Position numbers and translations under genes: made by a program. A model generated the notes under the pieces. That model did no database searches. It worked only from the letters and a program-made list of their open reading frames with translations, and had not been told where the DNA came from. Shown piece after piece: positions 5,237 through 12,342 of a stretch of DNA of 14,999 nt. The stretch is from a bacterium. Its GTDB lineage: Bacteria; Actinomycetota; Acidimicrobiia; Acidimicrobiales; CATQHL01. The DNA lies in assembly GCA_028819945.1 (NCBI GenBank), contig JAPPKQ010000311.1, positions 1 to 14,999 on the forward strand, read 5' to 3'. Position 1 is the stretch's first letter; every line of letters begins with the position of its first letter.

Positions 5237-5242
5237 TATGAT
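5237..5242 (+). promoter_or_regulatory. -10 element of vapBC, giving a probable leaderless mRNA
   Basis: TATGAT at 5237-5242 matches the consensus -10 in five of six positions in otherwise GC-rich DNA. Seven bases later comes ATG 5250, exactly where transcription would start, so the mRNA would be leaderless. No ribosome site precedes ATG 5238 or 5250. No good -35 hexamer is visible at 5214-5219. The same six bases also contain the upstream ATG 5238, the competing start. Confidence 0.45.
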
Positions 5243-5249
5243 GATCGGT

Positions 5250-5513
5250 ATGACCGTTCCTCGAGCGAAGATCACCATCACCATCGACGCGGCGCTGTTG
5301 GCTCGCGTCCGGCTGGCGGTGGAGGCCGGGCACGCCCGCAGCGTCTCCGCCTACATCGAGCATGCCGTCGCCGGTCAGCTCACCGCGGAGGATGACTTCG
5401 AAGCCATGCTGGCAGAGAGTCTTGCTGCGACCGGCGGACCGCCGACCGACGCAGAACTGGAGGCCGCCGGGCGTCTCCTCGCGGGCGAACCCGTTGCGGA
5501 TGAGGCCGCGTGA
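5250..5513 (+). CDS. vapB: VapB-type antitoxin (ribbon-helix-helix)
   Basis: This small protein, 87 residues from ATG 5250, lies directly before a PIN-domain toxin gene. The N-terminus AKITITIDAALLARVRLAVEAG followed by SVSAYIEHAV has the strand-helix-helix pattern of ribbon-helix-helix DNA-binding antitoxins. The acidic C-terminal half (EDDFEAMLAESLAA, ELEAAGRLLAGEP) would wrap and block the toxin. The start could be ATG 5238, which adds MMIG. I prefer 5250 because the TATGAT promoter element covers 5237-5242 and because family members usually begin a few residues before the ITI strand. The stop overlaps the toxin start by four bases. Such pairs typically repress their own promoter, and the short upstream region fits that. 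Confidence 0.8.
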   Translation: MTVPRAKITITIDAALLARVRLAVEAGHARSVSAYIEHAVAGQLTAEDDFEAMLAESLAATGGPPTDAELEAAGRLLAGEPVADEAA

Positions 5514-5887
5514 GCGGCGCGATTCTCGACACGGGGGCGTTGCTTGCCATCGAGCGCGGTGACCGTGTCATCGACGTCCTGCTGGTGCAGGCCAAGAGGG
5601 TACGAGCAAGGCTGACGGTCCCCGCGGGATGTGTTGCCCAGGCATGGCGGAATCCTCGGCGACAGGCCCGGCTGGCGACCTTCCTCCGGCGGTCGTATGT
5701 GGACATCGTGGCCCTCGACGCCGACGACGCCCGACGCATCGGCCTGCTGATGGCGTCCTCCGGCACGACCGACGTCGTGGATGCCCACGTCGCCGTGTGT
5801 GCTCTCCGCCGCGGCGTGCCGGTCCTCACCAGCGATCCGGACGACATCGAGCGGCTGGCGCCGGCTCTGCGGGTTCACGCCGTCTGA
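5510..5887 (+). CDS. vapC: VapC-type PIN-domain ribonuclease toxin
   Basis: This 125-residue PIN-domain protein is expected to cleave RNA with Mg2+ when released from its antitoxin. The first conserved acid is Asp7 in ILDTGALLAIE. Asp88 and Asp91 lie in TTDVVDAHVA, and Asp109 and Asp112 in LTSDPDDI. The usual glutamate in the middle of the domain is replaced by Gln44 in VAQAWR, a variant I recall from a VapC subgroup with the same RQARLA stretch. The GTG start at 5510 overlaps the vapB stop (GTGA), which is typical operon coupling. The length is normal for the family, and all other catalytic acids are present, so the toxin looks intact. Its RNA target cannot be read from the sequence. Confidence 0.87.
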   Translation: MSGAILDTGALLAIERGDRVIDVLLVQAKRVRARLTVPAGCVAQAWRNPRRQARLATFLRRSYVDIVALDADDARRIGLLMASSGTTDVVDAHVAVCALRRGVPVLTSDPDDIERLAPALRVHAV

Positions 5888-6126: not shown

Positions 6127-6828
6127 CTAGACCAGCTGGCCGATTATGAGGGCCACGCCGCCGGCGAGGGCGACGCTGAGTACCGCCGGGCGGAACCAGT
6201 TCCGATCCAGGTAGGGCCGCACCACCCGCGAGATCGCCAGCCCGATGAACATCCCCGGCACCAGGTAACCGATCAGCTTGAGTTCGTGGAGGCCGAAGTT
6301 GTCTCGGGCCACCAGCAGAGCGATGCCCACCCCGCCCACGATGCCGATGTACACCGAGGAGGTGGACCGCAGGACGGGCGGGCGCATCTCGCTGAAGCAG
6401 ATACCCAACGGAGCACCGGGCAGCGCCGCGGCCATGGCTCCGAAGCTGCAGGTCAGCCCCCCGGCGATCTCGGTGCGGCGGGTCTGCCGCAGGCGGAAGC
6501 CTGCCAGCAGGACCAGCGCCGAGCCGGCCACCAGAGCCCCTATCAGGATCGTCCGGATCGTCTCGGGCACGAGTTCCAGGACCGCGATGCCGGCCGCCAG
6601 GCCGGCCGGCAGTCCCCAGAGCGCGTGCCTCACCGCTCGCCAGTCGATGTGCCTGCCCTCCACGATGATGTGGCGTATGCCGATGATCTGACCGACGATC
6701 AGCAGCGGCCCGGGGATGAACGTGGGGTCGATGGCGACCAGGGCCGGAGCGGCGACCAGCGACAGGCCCACGCCGACCGAGCCCTGCACGATGGCGCCGC
6801 CCGCCACCGCGGCGATGGCGAGGACCAA
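6127..6828 (-). CDS. TauE/SafE family membrane transporter
   Basis: This is a hydrophobic protein of about 233 residues with roughly seven to eight membrane segments. The opening repeat GGAIVQGSVGVGLSLVAAPALVAIDP is the hallmark of the TauE/SafE (DUF81) family. A second, weaker copy of this motif (LTCSFGAMAAALPGAPLGI) begins the C-terminal half. Members are linked to export or uptake of sulfite, sulfoacetate and other organic anions; the substrate here is unknown. The conventional start is TTG 6828, but it lacks a ribosome site. In frame upstream, a CTG at 6843-6841 overlaps the stop of the Rieske gene (CTGA), has GGGGGG five bases before it, and would add LSAVE, which fits the usual family N-terminus. 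The gene is last in the molybdenum hydroxylase operon and may move its substrate or product. Confidence 0.87.
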   Translation of the reverse strand: MVLAIAAVAGGAIVQGSVGVGLSLVAAPALVAIDPTFIPGPLLIVGQIIGIRHIIVEGRHIDWRAVRHALWGLPAGLAAGIAVLELVPETIRTILIGALVAGSALVLLAGFRLRQTRRTEIAGGLTCSFGAMAAALPGAPLGICFSEMRPPVLRSTSSVYIGIVGGVGIALLVARDNFGLHELKLIGYLVPGMFIGLAISRVVRPYLDRNWFRPAVLSVALAGGVALIIGQLV

Positions 6829-6839
6829 CTCGACGGCGC

Positions 6840-7208
6840 TCAGGGGTTCCCCCCGAACGCGCCCCGCCTGACCCGGATCTCCCCGGCCACCTCCCGGCAG
6901 GGGTACACCTCGATGTCACCCTTGCGGTCGCGGCGGCCGTCGAGGTTCTCCTTCCAGCCGCTCCCGTCGGTGGCGAAGGTCCAGAAGTGCGTGAGGCAGA
7001 CGATCTCCTCGCCGGCCACGGCCCCGGAGCCCCCGAGGTGCGACCACTGGTGCGGGCAGCGTGCCTCCATCACGCACGGGACACCGCTCTCGGTGCGCCA
7101 CACCACCACGTCGGCACCCTCGAGGGTCGCCTCGACGACCTCGCCGGGCGCCACCGCCCCGGCCGCCGCGACCGTGACCCACGAGCCGCCGGCGGCACCG
7201 TCGGTCAT
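6840..7208 (-). CDS. Rieske-type [2Fe-2S] protein
   Basis: This 122-residue soluble protein is built around one Rieske domain. The cluster ligands are Cys51 and His53 (CPHQWSHLGG) and Cys71 and His74 (CLTHFWTF), so both halves of the motif are intact. It is too short to be a Rieske oxygenase alpha subunit and resembles the ferredoxin component of such systems. The ATG at 7208 overlaps the TGA of the upstream truncated molybdopterin subunit (ATGA), so translation is coupled. Its place in a molybdenum hydroxylase operon suggests that it passes electrons to or from the hydroxylase, beside the usual plant-type 2Fe-2S subunit. That role is inference. An unrelated function carried along in the operon is possible. 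Confidence 0.88.
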   Translation of the reverse strand: MTDGAAGGSWVTVAAAGAVAPGEVVEATLEGADVVVWRTESGVPCVMEARCPHQWSHLGGSGAVAGEEIVCLTHFWTFATDGSGWKENLDGRRDRKGDIEVYPCREVAGEIRVRRGAFGGNP

Positions 7209-8437
7209 GCGCAGGCCTCGACGATGGCGGCACGGATGCGCTGCGGTGACAGCGGGCCGTCGGTCAGGCGCACCCCGAGGGGTGCCAGGGCGTCGGCCAC
7301 GGCGTTGAAGACGCACGGAACCGACCCGATCGCCCCTCCCTCGCCGGTTCCCTTGTGGCCGCCCGGGCTGTCCGAGGGGGTGACGATGTGACCGAACTCG
7401 AATGAGGGAATCTCCGCGGCGCTCGGCACCAGATAGTCGGCGAACGTGGTGGCCAGGGGGTTGCCGTCTGCGTCGTAGGCGACCTCCTCCAGCAGCGCCC
7501 CGCCGATGCCCTGCGCCGCGCCACCGGCGATCTGACCCTTCACCACCATCGGGTTGATCATCACGCCGCAATCCTCGCTCACGGCGTAGCGCAGCAGCCG
7601 GACGGCACCGGTGGCGACGTCCACCTCGCAGGTGCAGGCATGGGCGGCATTGGAATAGGTGACGGGGGGCGCCTTGAATCTCGCCGTGTGCTCCAGCCCG
7701 CCGCTGATGTCTGCGGGCAGGGTGTCCGGCCGCATGTAGGCGGCCCGGGCCACCTCGGCGACGGTCGTCCGCCGCGCCGGCGTGCCGCGCACCACCACGG
7801 CGCCGCCGCCGAGGTCGAGATCGTCGACGGAGGCCTCCATCAGCTCGGACGCGACCCGCAGCAGCTTCGCCCGCACGCCCGCCGAGGCGGCACGTGCCGC
7901 GCCGCCGGCGATGACCGCCGAGCGGCTGCCGCCGGTGCCGAACCCGTAGGGGGTGCCGTGGCCCTGATGAAACCGCACGTCACCGGGATGCACACCGAGC
8001 GCGTCGGCCACGATTTGCGCCATCGTGGTCTCGAGGCTCTGGCCGTGGCTGCCGGTGCCGGCGTAGACGTTCACCGCCACAGGGTCGCCGACGAAGCGCA
8101 CGTCGCCGTCGGCCAGAAGGTGGTCCGGGGGCCCGCCCCCGCCCGGGAGCACGAGCGAGCCGCGCATCGAGCCCACGTCGCCGTTGAGGCCGTCGGCGGT
8201 CCACACCGCCCACACCCCGTCGAGGGCTGCGGCGGCCTTCACATCGAGACGCGTGATCCGGGCCCGTGCCCGGGTGCTGCGGGCGAAGGCAACGTGCCCG
8301 GTGCCGACCGGCGCGAGGTTGGCGACGTAGCGGCCGCGCCCGGTGAGCAGCCGGGGGTCCTCGAGGCGGGCGACCGACTGTCCGACGTAACGGGCCGCGG
8401 GCGGGGCGGTGCCGGCCGCCGCGGCCGGATCGTTCAC
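7205..8437 (-). CDS. Internally deleted molybdopterin-binding subunit of the xanthine oxidase family (L')
   Basis: This 410-residue product is about half the size of a normal large subunit of molybdenum hydroxylases (about 780). Residues 15-122 match the N-terminal domain (RYVGQSVARLEDPRLLTGRGRYV up to VRFVGDPVAV). Residue 123 onward then jumps to the late region (VYAGTGSHGQSLETTMAQIVADALG). Against the neighbouring full subunit, about 385 residues are missing, including the GGSFG and AYRGFG active-site loops. The C-terminal half is complete, with NPMVVKGQIAGG and the catalytic-type Glu366 in GTGEGG. The junction lies near 8066-8078, and the frame is intact on both sides. GTG 8437 has no clear ribosome site and follows a 77-base gap. 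The stop overlaps the Rieske start. It may be a decaying duplicate, a structural subunit, or an assembly error. Confidence 0.8.
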   Translation of the reverse strand: MNDPAAAAGTAPPAARYVGQSVARLEDPRLLTGRGRYVANLAPVGTGHVAFARSTRARARITRLDVKAAAALDGVWAVWTADGLNGDVGSMRGSLVLPGGGGPPDHLLADGDVRFVGDPVAVNVYAGTGSHGQSLETTMAQIVADALGVHPGDVRFHQGHGTPYGFGTGGSRSAVIAGGAARAASAGVRAKLLRVASELMEASVDDLDLGGGAVVVRGTPARRTTVAEVARAAYMRPDTLPADISGGLEHTARFKAPPVTYSNAAHACTCEVDVATGAVRLLRYAVSEDCGVMINPMVVKGQIAGGAAQGIGGALLEEVAYDADGNPLATTFADYLVPSAAEIPSFEFGHIVTPSDSPGGHKGTGEGGAIGSVPCVFNAVADALAPLGVRLTDGPLSPQRIRAAIVEACA

Positions 8438-8514
8438 GGGCGCGGGGCCGCGGCGCAGGAGTCGGGCGCGTCGGCGTTCAAGGGGTCGAGGAGATCGGTG
8501 GCGACGGTCGCTGC

Positions 8515-10932
8515 TCAGTCCTTGGCGTCGACCATCTCCACGATGCGCTCGGGGGTGGCGGGCAGGCGCCGGATGCGGATGCCCAGGGCGTCGTCGATGG
8601 CGGCGCAGATGGCCGAGGGTGCCATCATGCGTCCCGCCTCGCCGCCGCCCTTGATGCCGTAGGGGGTGTAGGGGCTGGGTGTCTCGTTGTGGCCCACCCG
8701 CAGCGTCGGCGAGTCCATCGCCGAGGGGATGAGGTACTCGGCGAACGACGGCGTCCGCAGCACGCCGTCCTCGTCGTAGAGGAACTCCTCGTACAGCGTG
8801 CTGCCGAGGCCCTGCACGGTGCCGCCGATGACCTGGCCACCCACCGAGCGGGGGTTCACGACGGTGCCGCAGTCGTGCACCGCCGCGTAGTCCAGGAACT
8901 CGACCCGCCCCGTCTCGGGGTCCACCTCCACGACCACGACGTGGCTGGCGTGGCCCACGAACGGGTAGAAGACGCCCAGATTGGTGCGCTCGGGGTTGGG
9001 CATGGTGGTGTAGGGGTGGTCCTGCACGTGGCTGGCCTCGAGGCCGGTCTCGATCTCCTCGGGCAGGGAGTGCTTGAACATGTGCGCCGCCAGGGCGATC
9101 TCGGCGAGTTCCTTGCGCTGGTCGGGGCTGCCGCGCACCGCGAAGCCGCCGTTCTCCCAGACGAGGTCGTCCTCGTTGGCCTCCAGCAGGTGGGCGGCGA
9201 TCTTGGCGGCCTTGGCCCGGATGCTCTGGGAGGCTCCCTCCACCGCGCCGCCCACCATGATCGTGAAGCGGCTGCCGCCCGGCCCGGTGGCGGGCATTCC
9301 CTGGTTGGAGCCGCCGTAGACCACCGAGACGTCCTCGGGCTCGACGCCCAGTTCCTCGGCCACGAACTGCGCCACCATCGTCTCGGGGCTGTTTCCCCAG
9401 GAGGCGTTGGAGTACAGCGTGGCGGTCACCGCGCCCATGGCGTCCACCTTCAGCGTCACGCTCTCGGGCGCGCTGGTGACCGGTGCGGCCACCGGCTCGT
9501 CGAACCAGAACCAGAACTCGGTGGCGCTGAAGACGCTGCGCTCCTGGCAGGTGCACACCCCGATGCCGATGTGGCGGCCCTCGGCGCGCATCTCGGCCTG
9601 GCGCTCGCGCCAACCCTTGTAGTCCGACAGCTCCATCGTCTTGTTCAGCACGGCCTCGTAGTCGCCGCTGTCGTAGACGTTGCCGGTGGGGATGAAGTAG
9701 GGGAACTGGTCGGGCTGGATGAAGTTCATGCGCCTGATGTCCACCGGATCCATGTCCAACTCGCGGGCCATGAGGTCCACCATGCGCTCCAGGATCCAGT
9801 TGCCCACCTCCGAGCCGAAGCCCCGGTAGGCGCCCTGCTGGCACTTGTTGGTCAGTACCGCCGTGAGGTCGTAGCCGATGCTGCTCATGCGGTAGGGGCC
9901 CACGGCCTGGGCGAGCGAGTTGCCGTGCTGGCCCACGCCGAACTGGATGTAGGCCCCGTAGTTGTCCACCACCTTGTAGCGGGTGCTCAACAGCGTGCCG
10001 TCGGCCTTGGCCGCCAACTCCACCTCGTAGTAGCGGTCCGAGCCGTGGTGGTCGCCGTTGGCGATGTTGTCGAGGCGGTCCTGCATGAACTTCACCGGCC
10101 GCCCGGTGATGCGCGCCATCATCGCCGCGATCGTGGCGGTCTTGACCTCGAAGAACTTGGCTCCGAAGCTGCCGCCGGAGGGATGGGGTTGCAGGTCCAG
10201 CTTGTTGCTGGGCACCCGCAGCGTGTTGGCCAGCAGGAACAGGAAGTGCGTGAACGACATGGAGTTCACGTGGATGGTCATCATGCCGGTGGCGGCGTCG
10301 TAGTCGGCCACCGCTCCGACGGTCTCCAGCGGCTGGCCGCCCGAGCGGCCCCACCACAGCGTGTCGCGCACGATCACGTCCGCGGCCGCGAAGTCGCCGT
10401 CCACGTCACCGAAGGTGAAGTTGCGCTGGAACGGGATGTTGGACTCCAGCGCCTCGTGGATCAGCGGCGCATCGTCCTCGAGGGCTTCGAGCAGGTCGGT
10501 GAGCGGTTCGAGGGGCTCGTACTCCACCTCGATCAGCTCGGCGGCGTCCTCGGCGATGGCCCGGGAGGTGGCGGCCACCACGGCCACGCCCTCGCCCATG
10601 TAGCGGACCTTGTCGACGGCCAGGCAGTACCAGGTGTGCTTGTCCGGCGACGGCCCGAAGTCGGGCATCGGGTTCACGTGGTCGGTGACGTTCTCGCTGG
10701 TGACGATGGCGACCACGCCGGGCACCGCCTCGGCGGCGGAGGTGTCAATGCTGAGGATCTTGGCGTGGGCCATGGTGCTGCGCGCCACGGCCACCTCCAG
10801 CATGTTCGGCACCTCGTAGTCGTCGATGTAGTTGCCCCTGCCGCGCAGGAACTTCGGGTCCTCCACGCGGGGGATCGACTTGCCGACCCACTCCAGGTGC
10901 TCGGGGTGCTGGCGTACTTCGGGGACGGTCAT
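8515..10932 (-). CDS. Molybdopterin-binding large subunit of a xanthine oxidase/CoxL-family hydroxylase
   Basis: This full-length 805-residue catalytic subunit belongs to an aerobic CO dehydrogenase/xanthine oxidase-type molybdenum hydroxylase. The N-terminal domain opens with VGKSIPRVEDPKFLRGRGNYIDD. The molybdopterin domains carry GGSFGAK at 253-259, AYRGFGSE at 368-375, NPRSVGGQVIGG near 693-704 and the catalytic-base-type Glu765 in KGGGEAG. Form I CO dehydrogenase has AYRCSFR at the second of these sites, so CO is unlikely as substrate. The later stretch usually reading HGQ...ET is WGNSPET here (512-518), an unusual change near the cofactor. The enzyme would hydroxylate an unidentified organic compound using water. 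The ATG at 10932 follows the small-subunit stop by one base, with AGGAGGG inside that gene. The product should form a trimeric unit with the next two subunits. Confidence 0.93.
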   Translation of the reverse strand: MTVPEVRQHPEHLEWVGKSIPRVEDPKFLRGRGNYIDDYEVPNMLEVAVARSTMAHAKILSIDTSAAEAVPGVVAIVTSENVTDHVNPMPDFGPSPDKHTWYCLAVDKVRYMGEGVAVVAATSRAIAEDAAELIEVEYEPLEPLTDLLEALEDDAPLIHEALESNIPFQRNFTFGDVDGDFAAADVIVRDTLWWGRSGGQPLETVGAVADYDAATGMMTIHVNSMSFTHFLFLLANTLRVPSNKLDLQPHPSGGSFGAKFFEVKTATIAAMMARITGRPVKFMQDRLDNIANGDHHGSDRYYEVELAAKADGTLLSTRYKVVDNYGAYIQFGVGQHGNSLAQAVGPYRMSSIGYDLTAVLTNKCQQGAYRGFGSEVGNWILERMVDLMARELDMDPVDIRRMNFIQPDQFPYFIPTGNVYDSGDYEAVLNKTMELSDYKGWRERQAEMRAEGRHIGIGVCTCQERSVFSATEFWFWFDEPVAAPVTSAPESVTLKVDAMGAVTATLYSNASWGNSPETMVAQFVAEELGVEPEDVSVVYGGSNQGMPATGPGGSRFTIMVGGAVEGASQSIRAKAAKIAAHLLEANEDDLVWENGGFAVRGSPDQRKELAEIALAAHMFKHSLPEEIETGLEASHVQDHPYTTMPNPERTNLGVFYPFVGHASHVVVVEVDPETGRVEFLDYAAVHDCGTVVNPRSVGGQVIGGTVQGLGSTLYEEFLYDEDGVLRTPSFAEYLIPSAMDSPTLRVGHNETPSPYTPYGIKGGGEAGRMMAPSAICAAIDDALGIRIRRLPATPERIVEMVDAKD

Positions 10933-10933
10933 G

Positions 10934-11416
10934 TCAGCCCTCCTCTGCGCGCATCTCGGCGGCGGCGTCGAGCACCGCGTCGACGATGTACTGGTAGCCG
11001 GTGCAGCGGCACATGTTGCTGGAGATCCCCTCCCTGGCCTCTTCGGCGGTGAGGTCGGGGTTGTCGTTGATCAGCTCCAGACTGCGCAGCAGCATCCCCG
11101 GTGTGCAGAACCCGCACTGCAGGCCCTGGTGGCGCCGGAACGCCTCCTGCAGCGGGTGCATCTCGGCGCCGGGGGCGAGGCTCTCGACGGTCTGGATGTC
11201 GGCCCCGTCGGCCTGCACGGCGAACATGATGCACGACCGCACGCTGCGGCCGCCGATCAGCACGGTGCAGGCGCCGCAGGCGCCCTGCTCGCACCCTATG
11301 TGCGTGCCCACCAGCCCGACGTCGTGGCGCAGGAAGTCCGCCAGGCTGCGGCGCGACTCCACATTGGCCGACGTCATCGCGCCGTTGATGGTCACGGTGA
11401 TGTCGTGAGTGCTCAT
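10934..11416 (-). CDS. [2Fe-2S] small subunit of molybdenum hydroxylase (CoxS type)
   Basis: This 160-residue iron-sulfur subunit carries electrons from the molybdenum site to the flavin subunit. The N-terminal plant-type cluster is bound by Cys42, Cys47, Cys50 and Cys62 (CEQGACGAC...C). The proximal cluster in the helical C-terminal domain is bound by Cys101, Cys104, Cys136 and Cys138 (CGFCTPG and CRCTGY). All eight cysteines are present and the length is normal. The ATG at 11416 overlaps the stop of the FAD-subunit gene (ATGA) and has a strong AGGAGGTGA site. The large subunit gene begins one base after the stop. The gene order M-S-L matches classic CO dehydrogenase-type operons. Confidence 0.95.
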   Translation of the reverse strand: MSTHDITVTINGAMTSANVESRRSLADFLRHDVGLVGTHIGCEQGACGACTVLIGGRSVRSCIMFAVQADGADIQTVESLAPGAEMHPLQEAFRRHQGLQCGFCTPGMLLRSLELINDNPDLTAEEAREGISSNMCRCTGYQYIVDAVLDAAAEMRAEEG

Positions 11417-12285
11417 GCGTCACCTCCTGCGCGCTCGGCGGCGGTTGTCAGTGCCCGCCGGGTGAGGACCCGTGCCAGCTTCTTGCGGTAGGCGCCCGAG
11501 CCGAACGAGTCCGACAACGGCTCGATGCCGGTTGCCGCCGCCTCGGCCGCGGCTTCGAACGCCTCGGCGCCCGGCTCTGCGCCCACCAGGACCGCCTCCG
11601 CCTCGGGGCGGCGCAGCGGCACCTCCGCCACCCCGCCCAGCACCACCGAGGCCCGATCGATGGCGCCGCCGCTGGTGTGGATCAGCACGGCCGCCAGCGC
11701 GATCGGCCAACTCTCCGCGGTCACGCTGAACTCCAGGAACCCGTGGCCGGTGCCCGCCGGCCAGGCGTCCACCGTCACGGCGGTCACCAGCTCGCCCTCC
11801 TCCAGGGCCGTCGTGAAGTAGCCCTCGAAGAAGTCCTCCGAGGCGATCTCCCGGGTGCCGCCGGCGCCCTGCGCGGTCACCGTGCCGCCCTGTGCCTTGA
11901 ACGCCGCGGGCATCTCCGCACTCGGATCGGCATGGGCGATGCTGCCCACCACCGTGCCCTGATGGCGCACCGGCACCTGTCCGGCGTTCGAGATGGCGTC
12001 GGCCAGTACCGGGGCGGTCGCCAGCGTGTCGGCATGCAACTCCACGGTCCGCTGGCGAGCGCCTGCGCCGATGTGCAGCCCGCCGCCGTTGGCGCCGCAA
12101 CCGGCCAGATCCGGTGCACCGGTGATGTCCACCAGATGCCCCGGCGCGGCCAGGCGCAGATTCATCAACGGGATCAGGCTCTGACCCCCCGCCAGAATCC
12201 GCGCATCGAACCCCAACTCACCCAGCAGCCCCGCCGCCTCCGCAGCAGACCCCGCCCGGTGATACTCGAAAGGTGGCGACTTCAT
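11413..12285 (-). CDS. FAD-binding medium subunit of molybdenum hydroxylase (CoxM type)
   Basis: This 290-residue flavin subunit takes electrons from the 2Fe-2S clusters and passes them to an acceptor such as quinone or oxygen. FAD-contact motifs are AGGQSLIPLMNLRL at residues 32-45 and TVVGSIAHADPSAEMP at 111-126. The usual reading of the second is TxGGSIAHADP, so Val113 replaces a glycine. The C-terminal CO dehydrogenase flavoprotein-type domain is present (SGAYRKKLARVLTRRAL). I chose ATG 12285 because GGGAGGG lies four bases upstream and family similarity starts at FEYHRAGS. An ATG at 12342 would add an unrelated 19-residue tail and overlap the likely promoter. It is the first gene of the operon M-S-L-L'-Rieske-TauE. 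Confidence 0.93.
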   Translation of the reverse strand: MKSPPFEYHRAGSAAEAAGLLGELGFDARILAGGQSLIPLMNLRLAAPGHLVDITGAPDLAGCGANGGGLHIGAGARQRTVELHADTLATAPVLADAISNAGQVPVRHQGTVVGSIAHADPSAEMPAAFKAQGGTVTAQGAGGTREIASEDFFEGYFTTALEEGELVTAVTVDAWPAGTGHGFLEFSVTAESWPIALAAVLIHTSGGAIDRASVVLGGVAEVPLRRPEAEAVLVGAEPGAEAFEAAAEAAATGIEPLSDSFGSGAYRKKLARVLTRRALTTAAERAGGDA

Positions 12286-12312
12286 AGGCCCTCCCTGGAG
12301 ACGCTGATCCGG

Positions 12313-12342
12313 AACGTAGTTGCTGGGGGATGGACGTGCCAT
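12313..12342 (-). promoter_or_regulatory. Candidate promoter of the molybdenum hydroxylase operon
   Basis: Reading the minus strand, ATGGCA at 12342-12337 matches the TTGACA consensus in four of six positions. TACGTT at 12318-12313 fits the TAnnnT -10 pattern. The spacer is 18 bases. Transcription would start near 12306, about 20 bases before the coxM-like ATG at 12285, leaving room for its GGGAGGG ribosome site. A palindrome lies just upstream. The match is modest and unproven. Confidence 0.4.

Follow-up and report, generated by a model that had tools for sequence, protein, structure and literature searches.

An in-frame internal deletion in an accessory molybdenum-hydroxylase large-subunit gene of an acidimicrobial genome

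Introduction

The described large subunits to which the gene examined here can be compared are those of the QorL, KdhL and NdhL/NdhM type. In KdhL, the N-terminal domain embraces the iron-sulphur subunit KdhS and the cofactor lies where the two domains cross, with residues F269 and R383 stabilising the cofactor (PMC8305194). Large subunits can be numerous in a single genome; coxL-type genes in sponge-associated Actinobacteria are reported to average 12 per genome (SD 4; PMC8941161).

The window analysed here is a stretch of 14,999 nucleotides of an acidimicrobial bacterium (GenBank assembly GCA_028819945.1, contig JAPPKQ010000311.1). It is one contig of a draft genome of 2.6 Mb that is divided into 485 contigs and is 76.4% complete. 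Two large-subunit genes lie side by side in the window, an intact gene, L, and a second gene, L', the central part of which is missing. A preliminary description made from the window's sequence proposed that the short L' may be a selected structural or regulatory subunit, and named a recent deletion and an assembly join as alternatives. Here we compare L' and its locus with those of related genomes and with enzymes of known structure. The window genome has about a dozen paralogous large-subunit loci, and the 24 stretches that match L' (its own included), distributed over 11 contigs, are in line with the average of 12 coxL-type genes given above (PMC8941161).

Results

Organisation of the locus

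Each gene in the run M, S, L, L', Rieske and TauE-like has a Pfam match (Table 1), and from the order and spacing the run is taken to be one operon. L is a paralogue, about 35% identical to the full-length form of L' described below. The frame of L' is intact, with 410 open codons and neither a stop nor a frameshift inside, and its stop overlaps the Rieske start in the sequence ATGA, as the preliminary description had stated; direct reading also places a GAGG seven bases upstream of the Rieske ATG.

Table 1. Coordinates of the genes and parts of L' in the window
Feature	Position	Strand	Description
TauE/SafE-type transporter	6127..6828	minus	Pfam; next gene, same direction
Rieske [2Fe-2S] protein	6840..7208	minus	Pfam; ATG overlaps L' stop
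L'	7205..8437	minus	Internally deleted molybdenum-hydroxylase large-subunit gene, GTG start, 410 residues
L' C-terminal part kept, residues 123-410 (= 505-792 of full length)	7208..8071	minus	MoCoBD_2, PF20256 profile 60-283 of 283, with Glu366
Deletion junction	8071..8076	minus	5 bp (G002) or 6 bp (G004) common to both ends of the missing 1146 bp
L' N-terminal part kept, residues 1-122	8072..8437	minus	Hammerhead, PF01315 profile 1-86 of 110
L	8515..10932	minus	Intact large subunit, 805 residues, three domains; Pfam
S	10934..11416	minus	[2Fe-2S] small subunit; Pfam
M	11413..12342	minus	FAD-binding medium subunit; Pfam

Two other differences were noted between the window and the corresponding loci of the same-genus genomes G002 (JAPPDX010000129.1) and G004 (VXXM01000039.1). 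The N-terminal linker of the Rieske protein (window 7140-7208), which is variable among the genus members compared, falls short of that in G002 by about 28 residues, and that of G004 differs too. On the plus strand at 5238-5887, a small ORF that had no Pfam match is followed by a gene for a PIN-domain protein, an arrangement like that of VapBC toxin-antitoxin pairs; both sit in approximately 940 bases that G002 and G004 lack at this position.

The deletion in L'

A search of 99 genomes (the window's own and 98 relatives) found close L' orthologues, 89-91% identical over the C-terminal part, in two of the seven other genomes of the genus, G002 and G004, which are presumably bins of sponge origin; the best match in each of the remaining five was 46-48% identical. 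Both orthologues have 792 residues and are encoded between L and Rieske at loci syntenic with the window. Against either of them, the window lacks exactly 1146 bp, or 382 codons, such that residue 122 is joined to residue 505 and residues 123-504 (382 of the 792) are gone, with residues 1-122 and 505-792 kept. The clean in-frame loss that had been reported is thus confirmed, and the estimate of about 385 central residues is corrected to 382; the earlier placing of the join, from about residue 119 to about 505, had been measured on the paralogue L, and becomes 122 to 505 on the proper reference.

The lost segment holds the whole of MoCoBD_1, flanked by the last portion of the hammerhead domain and the opening portion of MoCoBD_2. 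Pfam detected no MoCoBD_1 (PF02738) in the 410-residue L', and detected it in the full-length L' of G002; the hammerhead domain scored 51.9 bits (cut-off 31.3), but over an incomplete profile, and MoCoBD_2 scored 223 bits (Table 1). Both active-site loops, GGGFG and AYRG, lie inside the deleted segment. The preliminary description had correctly called both loops lost, but as GGSFG and AYRGFG; the latter is the motif of L, whereas full-length L' has AYRGPW, and the first loop, GGGFG, reads GGAFG in G004 and its cluster P0123. Also as described, Glu366 (the glutamate of GEGG, equivalent to Glu748 of the full-length form) is kept.

The position of the best split is free to shift by 5 bp in the comparison with G002 (k=361-366) and by 6 bp in that with G004 (k=361-367), indicating that the two ends of the deletion share a 5-6 bp repeat. 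When pairs of breaks were drawn at random on G002 and G004, a shared repeat of at least 5 bp was obtained in about 1% of draws. Some involvement of microhomology is likely, although a single event proves little. The syntenic full-length orthologues, the exact loss and the repeat at the break support the deletion that had been listed as an alternative. Within the window's own genome (76% complete), the missing segment was not recovered at another site: the best of 13 matches had 38% identity, and no ORF above this identity could serve there as an NdhL/NdhM-type partner covering the missing part.

Occurrence of the junction in other proteins

A search for homologues with the same junction, as had been suggested, returned one such protein, P0002, among the 120 matches listed, all of which were re-compared. 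P0002 comes from a set of 5.8 billion proteins, where it represents a cluster of six members, the window's own protein possibly among them. It has 410 residues and the identical junction, differs from the window protein at residues 88, 197 and 215 and in the start letter, and is encoded on a contig that is listed separately and has 7,931 bases, compared with 14,999 for that of the window. The shared junction together with the three internal differences indicates that the junction is present in at least two genotypes. Among the 120 listed, only P0002 covered the whole L' query, the other 119 covering at most 78%, and only P0002 had PF20256 and PF01315 without PF02738 in the precomputed domains. 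The length limit of this search excludes full-length relatives, and many of the listed matches are pieces from short contigs. Besides P0002, the alignments of P0011 and P0063 continue beyond the junction position. P0011 was rejected as a junction carrier, as the ordinary upstream stretch is present and the protein aligns to residues 423-792 of full length, and so was P0063, which on reading has the usual middle part; P0005, P0046 and P0108 have 278-367 residues between separate N- and C-terminal matches, and P0009 has 6 residues there, which represents a different deletion. An N-terminal match was absent from the other 113 of the 120. Among the matches listed for the 98 other genomes (E up to 1e-60), none spanned both retained parts of L'; each either started at residue 105 or beyond or ended by 136.

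Among 120 matches listed of 7,762 in a comparison made with the full-length protein, seven full-length clusters (P0122-P0128) had 83-100% identity and lengths of 782-792 residues. Beyond these seven and P0003, identity to G002 falls to 63% or less; a 'Candidatus Poriferisocius' protein is among the relatives listed, at 59%. The closest relatives are not uniformly complete: the seven clusters are full length, whereas the short form recurs in P0002, and P0003 and P0009 have been shortened differently.

P0003, P0004 and P0009 form a sister lineage with 98-99% identity within it; over the last 166 columns, none of them exceeds 92% identity to a full-length cluster. P0009, of 245 residues and encoded on a 3.9-Mb contig, and P0003, of 582 residues, each have internal losses other than that of the window. 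In a protein comparison, the start of P0003 agrees with the equivalent G004 region as translated in the +1 frame, which points to an apparent upstream frameshift. P0004, which starts at an internal Met, may be a disrupted gene or a piece cut off by a contig edge. The 120 matches listed of 7,762 included no evident full-length member of this lineage.

Presence and absence of L' in related genomes

L was found in eight of the 21 genomes searched (E up to 1e-150), namely the window genome, six of the seven other genomes of the genus, and G008 of a sister genus; G001 gave no L match at this threshold, and the L of G005 is partial and at a contig end. Three further loci of the genus (G003, G006 and G007) have the order M-S-L-Rieske-TauE with a short gap between L and Rieske and no L', which marks L' as accessory here. 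The window keeps a complete set of L, S, M and Rieske genes, as do these three genomes. In G008, no match to L' or Rieske followed L within the stretch taken, and in three more distant genomes (L030-L032) the stretch taken contained M, S and, as its sole large-subunit match, an L' homologue. A tree of the L and S loci, with supports of 38 and 49, did not separate a single gain of L' from repeated loss. By eye, the L-L' intergenic stretch (window 8437-8515) resembles the L-Rieske stretch of G006 (L089 6327-6500); judging from this likeness, an insertion of L' at the Rieske start and a later precise loss of it are both possible.

Sequence constraint on the retained parts

We estimated dN/dS by a three-taxon Nei-Gojobori procedure with 200 bootstraps for the retained parts of L' and for TauE, L, the histidine kinase, M and S. 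On the window branch, L' gave 0.19 (0.11-0.33), a range that overlaps that of L at 0.09 (0.04-0.16); the values were 0.12 for TauE, 0.07 for the histidine kinase, 0.06 for M and 0.05 for S. L' is thus the highest of the six genes on this branch, yet is not distinguishable from them. On the G002 and G004 branches L' gave 0.10 and 0.12, and the intact M reached 0.25 and 0.20. Given these M values and the overlapping bootstraps, the L' ratio indicates neither relaxed nor maintained selection.

Of the 303 sites that do not vary among the seven full-length clusters, 9 are changed in the window lineage, a count that includes the start letter and two changes present in a single genotype. On an equal footing, the two deleted genotypes, P0001 and P0002, had 8 and 7 such changes, within the range of 2-13 obtained when the full-length members were left out singly; the remnant therefore shows no visible erosion. 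Of the three internal differences between P0001 and P0002, two fall at sites invariant in the seven clusters, which hints at relaxed constraint, although the numbers are tiny. Together with the highest dN/dS on the window branch, these differences give weak support to decay.

Structural predictions

The AlphaFold2 model of the remnant had a mean pLDDT of 62.5 and a pTM of 0.47 (42 sequences), compared with 79.2 and 0.83 for the full-length L' of G002 (40 sequences). Over residues 41-120, pLDDT fell from about 88 in the full-length model to about 47 in the remnant (averages of printed blocks); the C-terminal part was at about 71 in the remnant versus about 75 in the full-length protein, and residues 1-40 were low in both. 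Foldseek matched the remnant to QorL and to CODH large chains over approximately 290-296 columns, and to NdhM (3hrd_B) with a TM-score of 0.57 by target length. The remnant lacks most of the N-terminal domain that holds the iron-sulphur subunit in KdhL. Based on the lost domain and motifs and on the comparison with KdhL, we infer that catalysis has been lost in L'; any protein made from it should neither bind the molybdenum cofactor productively nor dock S in the normal way.

Discussion

The reading that we favour, with a probability of about 0.82, is that L' was a dispensable accessory large subunit that was inactivated by a microhomology-type deletion, a case of ordinary gene decay. L' would have been an accessory second large subunit within the M-S-L-Rieske-TauE run, the window lineage would have lost the 1146 bp between the two repeat copies, by slippage or end-joining as the junction suggests, and the 410-residue protein, if made, would be a non-catalytic remnant, to judge from the lost motifs and domain. 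The open frame could have arisen by chance, as one in three deletions keeps the frame, and would need no special function; with the frame kept, translation would in addition still run as far as the overlapping Rieske start, and this could have favoured the allele. Several observations count against decay: the deletion allele is common to at least two genotypes and has therefore persisted for some time, L' has acquired no stop or frameshift, its window-branch dN/dS is still low, change at invariant sites is not raised, and the C-terminal half is modelled with fair confidence and resembles NdhM.

These same observations speak for the 410-residue form as a selected structural or regulatory subunit, which would join L-S-M without catalysis or supply the C-terminal half in trans. 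We regard this as unlikely, and the proposal of the preliminary description as not supported. The junction occurs in one of the 120 listed relatives, P0002, which belongs to the same lineage; the L-S-M-Rieske set is complete without L' in three genomes of the genus; the modelled structure is lost in the N-terminal part; and proteins of the sister lineage carry different deletions, one with an apparent frameshift, rather than the same one. The low dN/dS, moreover, may mostly reflect the time when L' was full length. A more elaborate version, which we consider improbable, holds that one precise in-frame deletion turned L' into a non-catalytic partner with a folded C-terminal half that joins and tunes L-S-M, and that similar short forms are arising in sister lineages by different deletions.

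An assembly or binning artefact that conceals a full-length gene, which had also been suggested, might be suspected in one contig of so fragmented and incomplete a draft genome; we judge it very unlikely, because P0002 has the same junction on a contig of different length with three internal residue differences, and a search of the 76%-complete genome did not recover the missing part. By established practice, an overlap of 5-6 bp is also far too short for a short-read assembler to join on, which disfavours a collapse of the two repeat copies. It is conceivable instead that L' is still a useful enzyme in the population and that the deletion is a minor strain variant, with most cells carrying the full-length gene, since close relatives have full-length forms and a metagenome contig can represent one strain of a mixture. 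This is very unlikely, as the deletion is present in both genotypes seen in the lineage, and the residues that distinguish the window lineage occur in none of the seven full-length clusters.

At this one locus, an accessory enzyme gene occurs complete in two relatives, with an internal deletion in the window lineage (and with different ones in the sister lineage), and not at all in three relatives. The case raises the question of whether an overlap of stop and start codons influences which operon deletions survive. It does not indicate a new type of enzyme.

The nearest counterparts of L' are the full-length proteins of G002 and G004, which occupy the same position and are about 90% identical to it over the retained parts, but which, unlike the window protein, have 792 residues and both active-site loops; the three Pfam domains were confirmed for G002. 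Among 41 solved relatives of full-length L' ranked by sequence, QorL (1t3q_B) was the best, and it headed the fold matches of the remnant as well; KdhL (7dqx_A) was sixth. Both are complete, unlike L', and KdhL is reported to be active (PMC8305194). In NdhL/NdhM (3hrd_A/B) the large subunit is naturally in two pieces, 3hrd_A corresponding to residues 18-436 and 3hrd_B to residues 492-787 of full-length L'. The C-terminal half of L' resembles NdhM, a natural stand-alone C-terminal half; however, NdhL and NdhM together are nearly whole, whereas L' is without its middle and without a partner piece found in its own genome, at 76% completeness.
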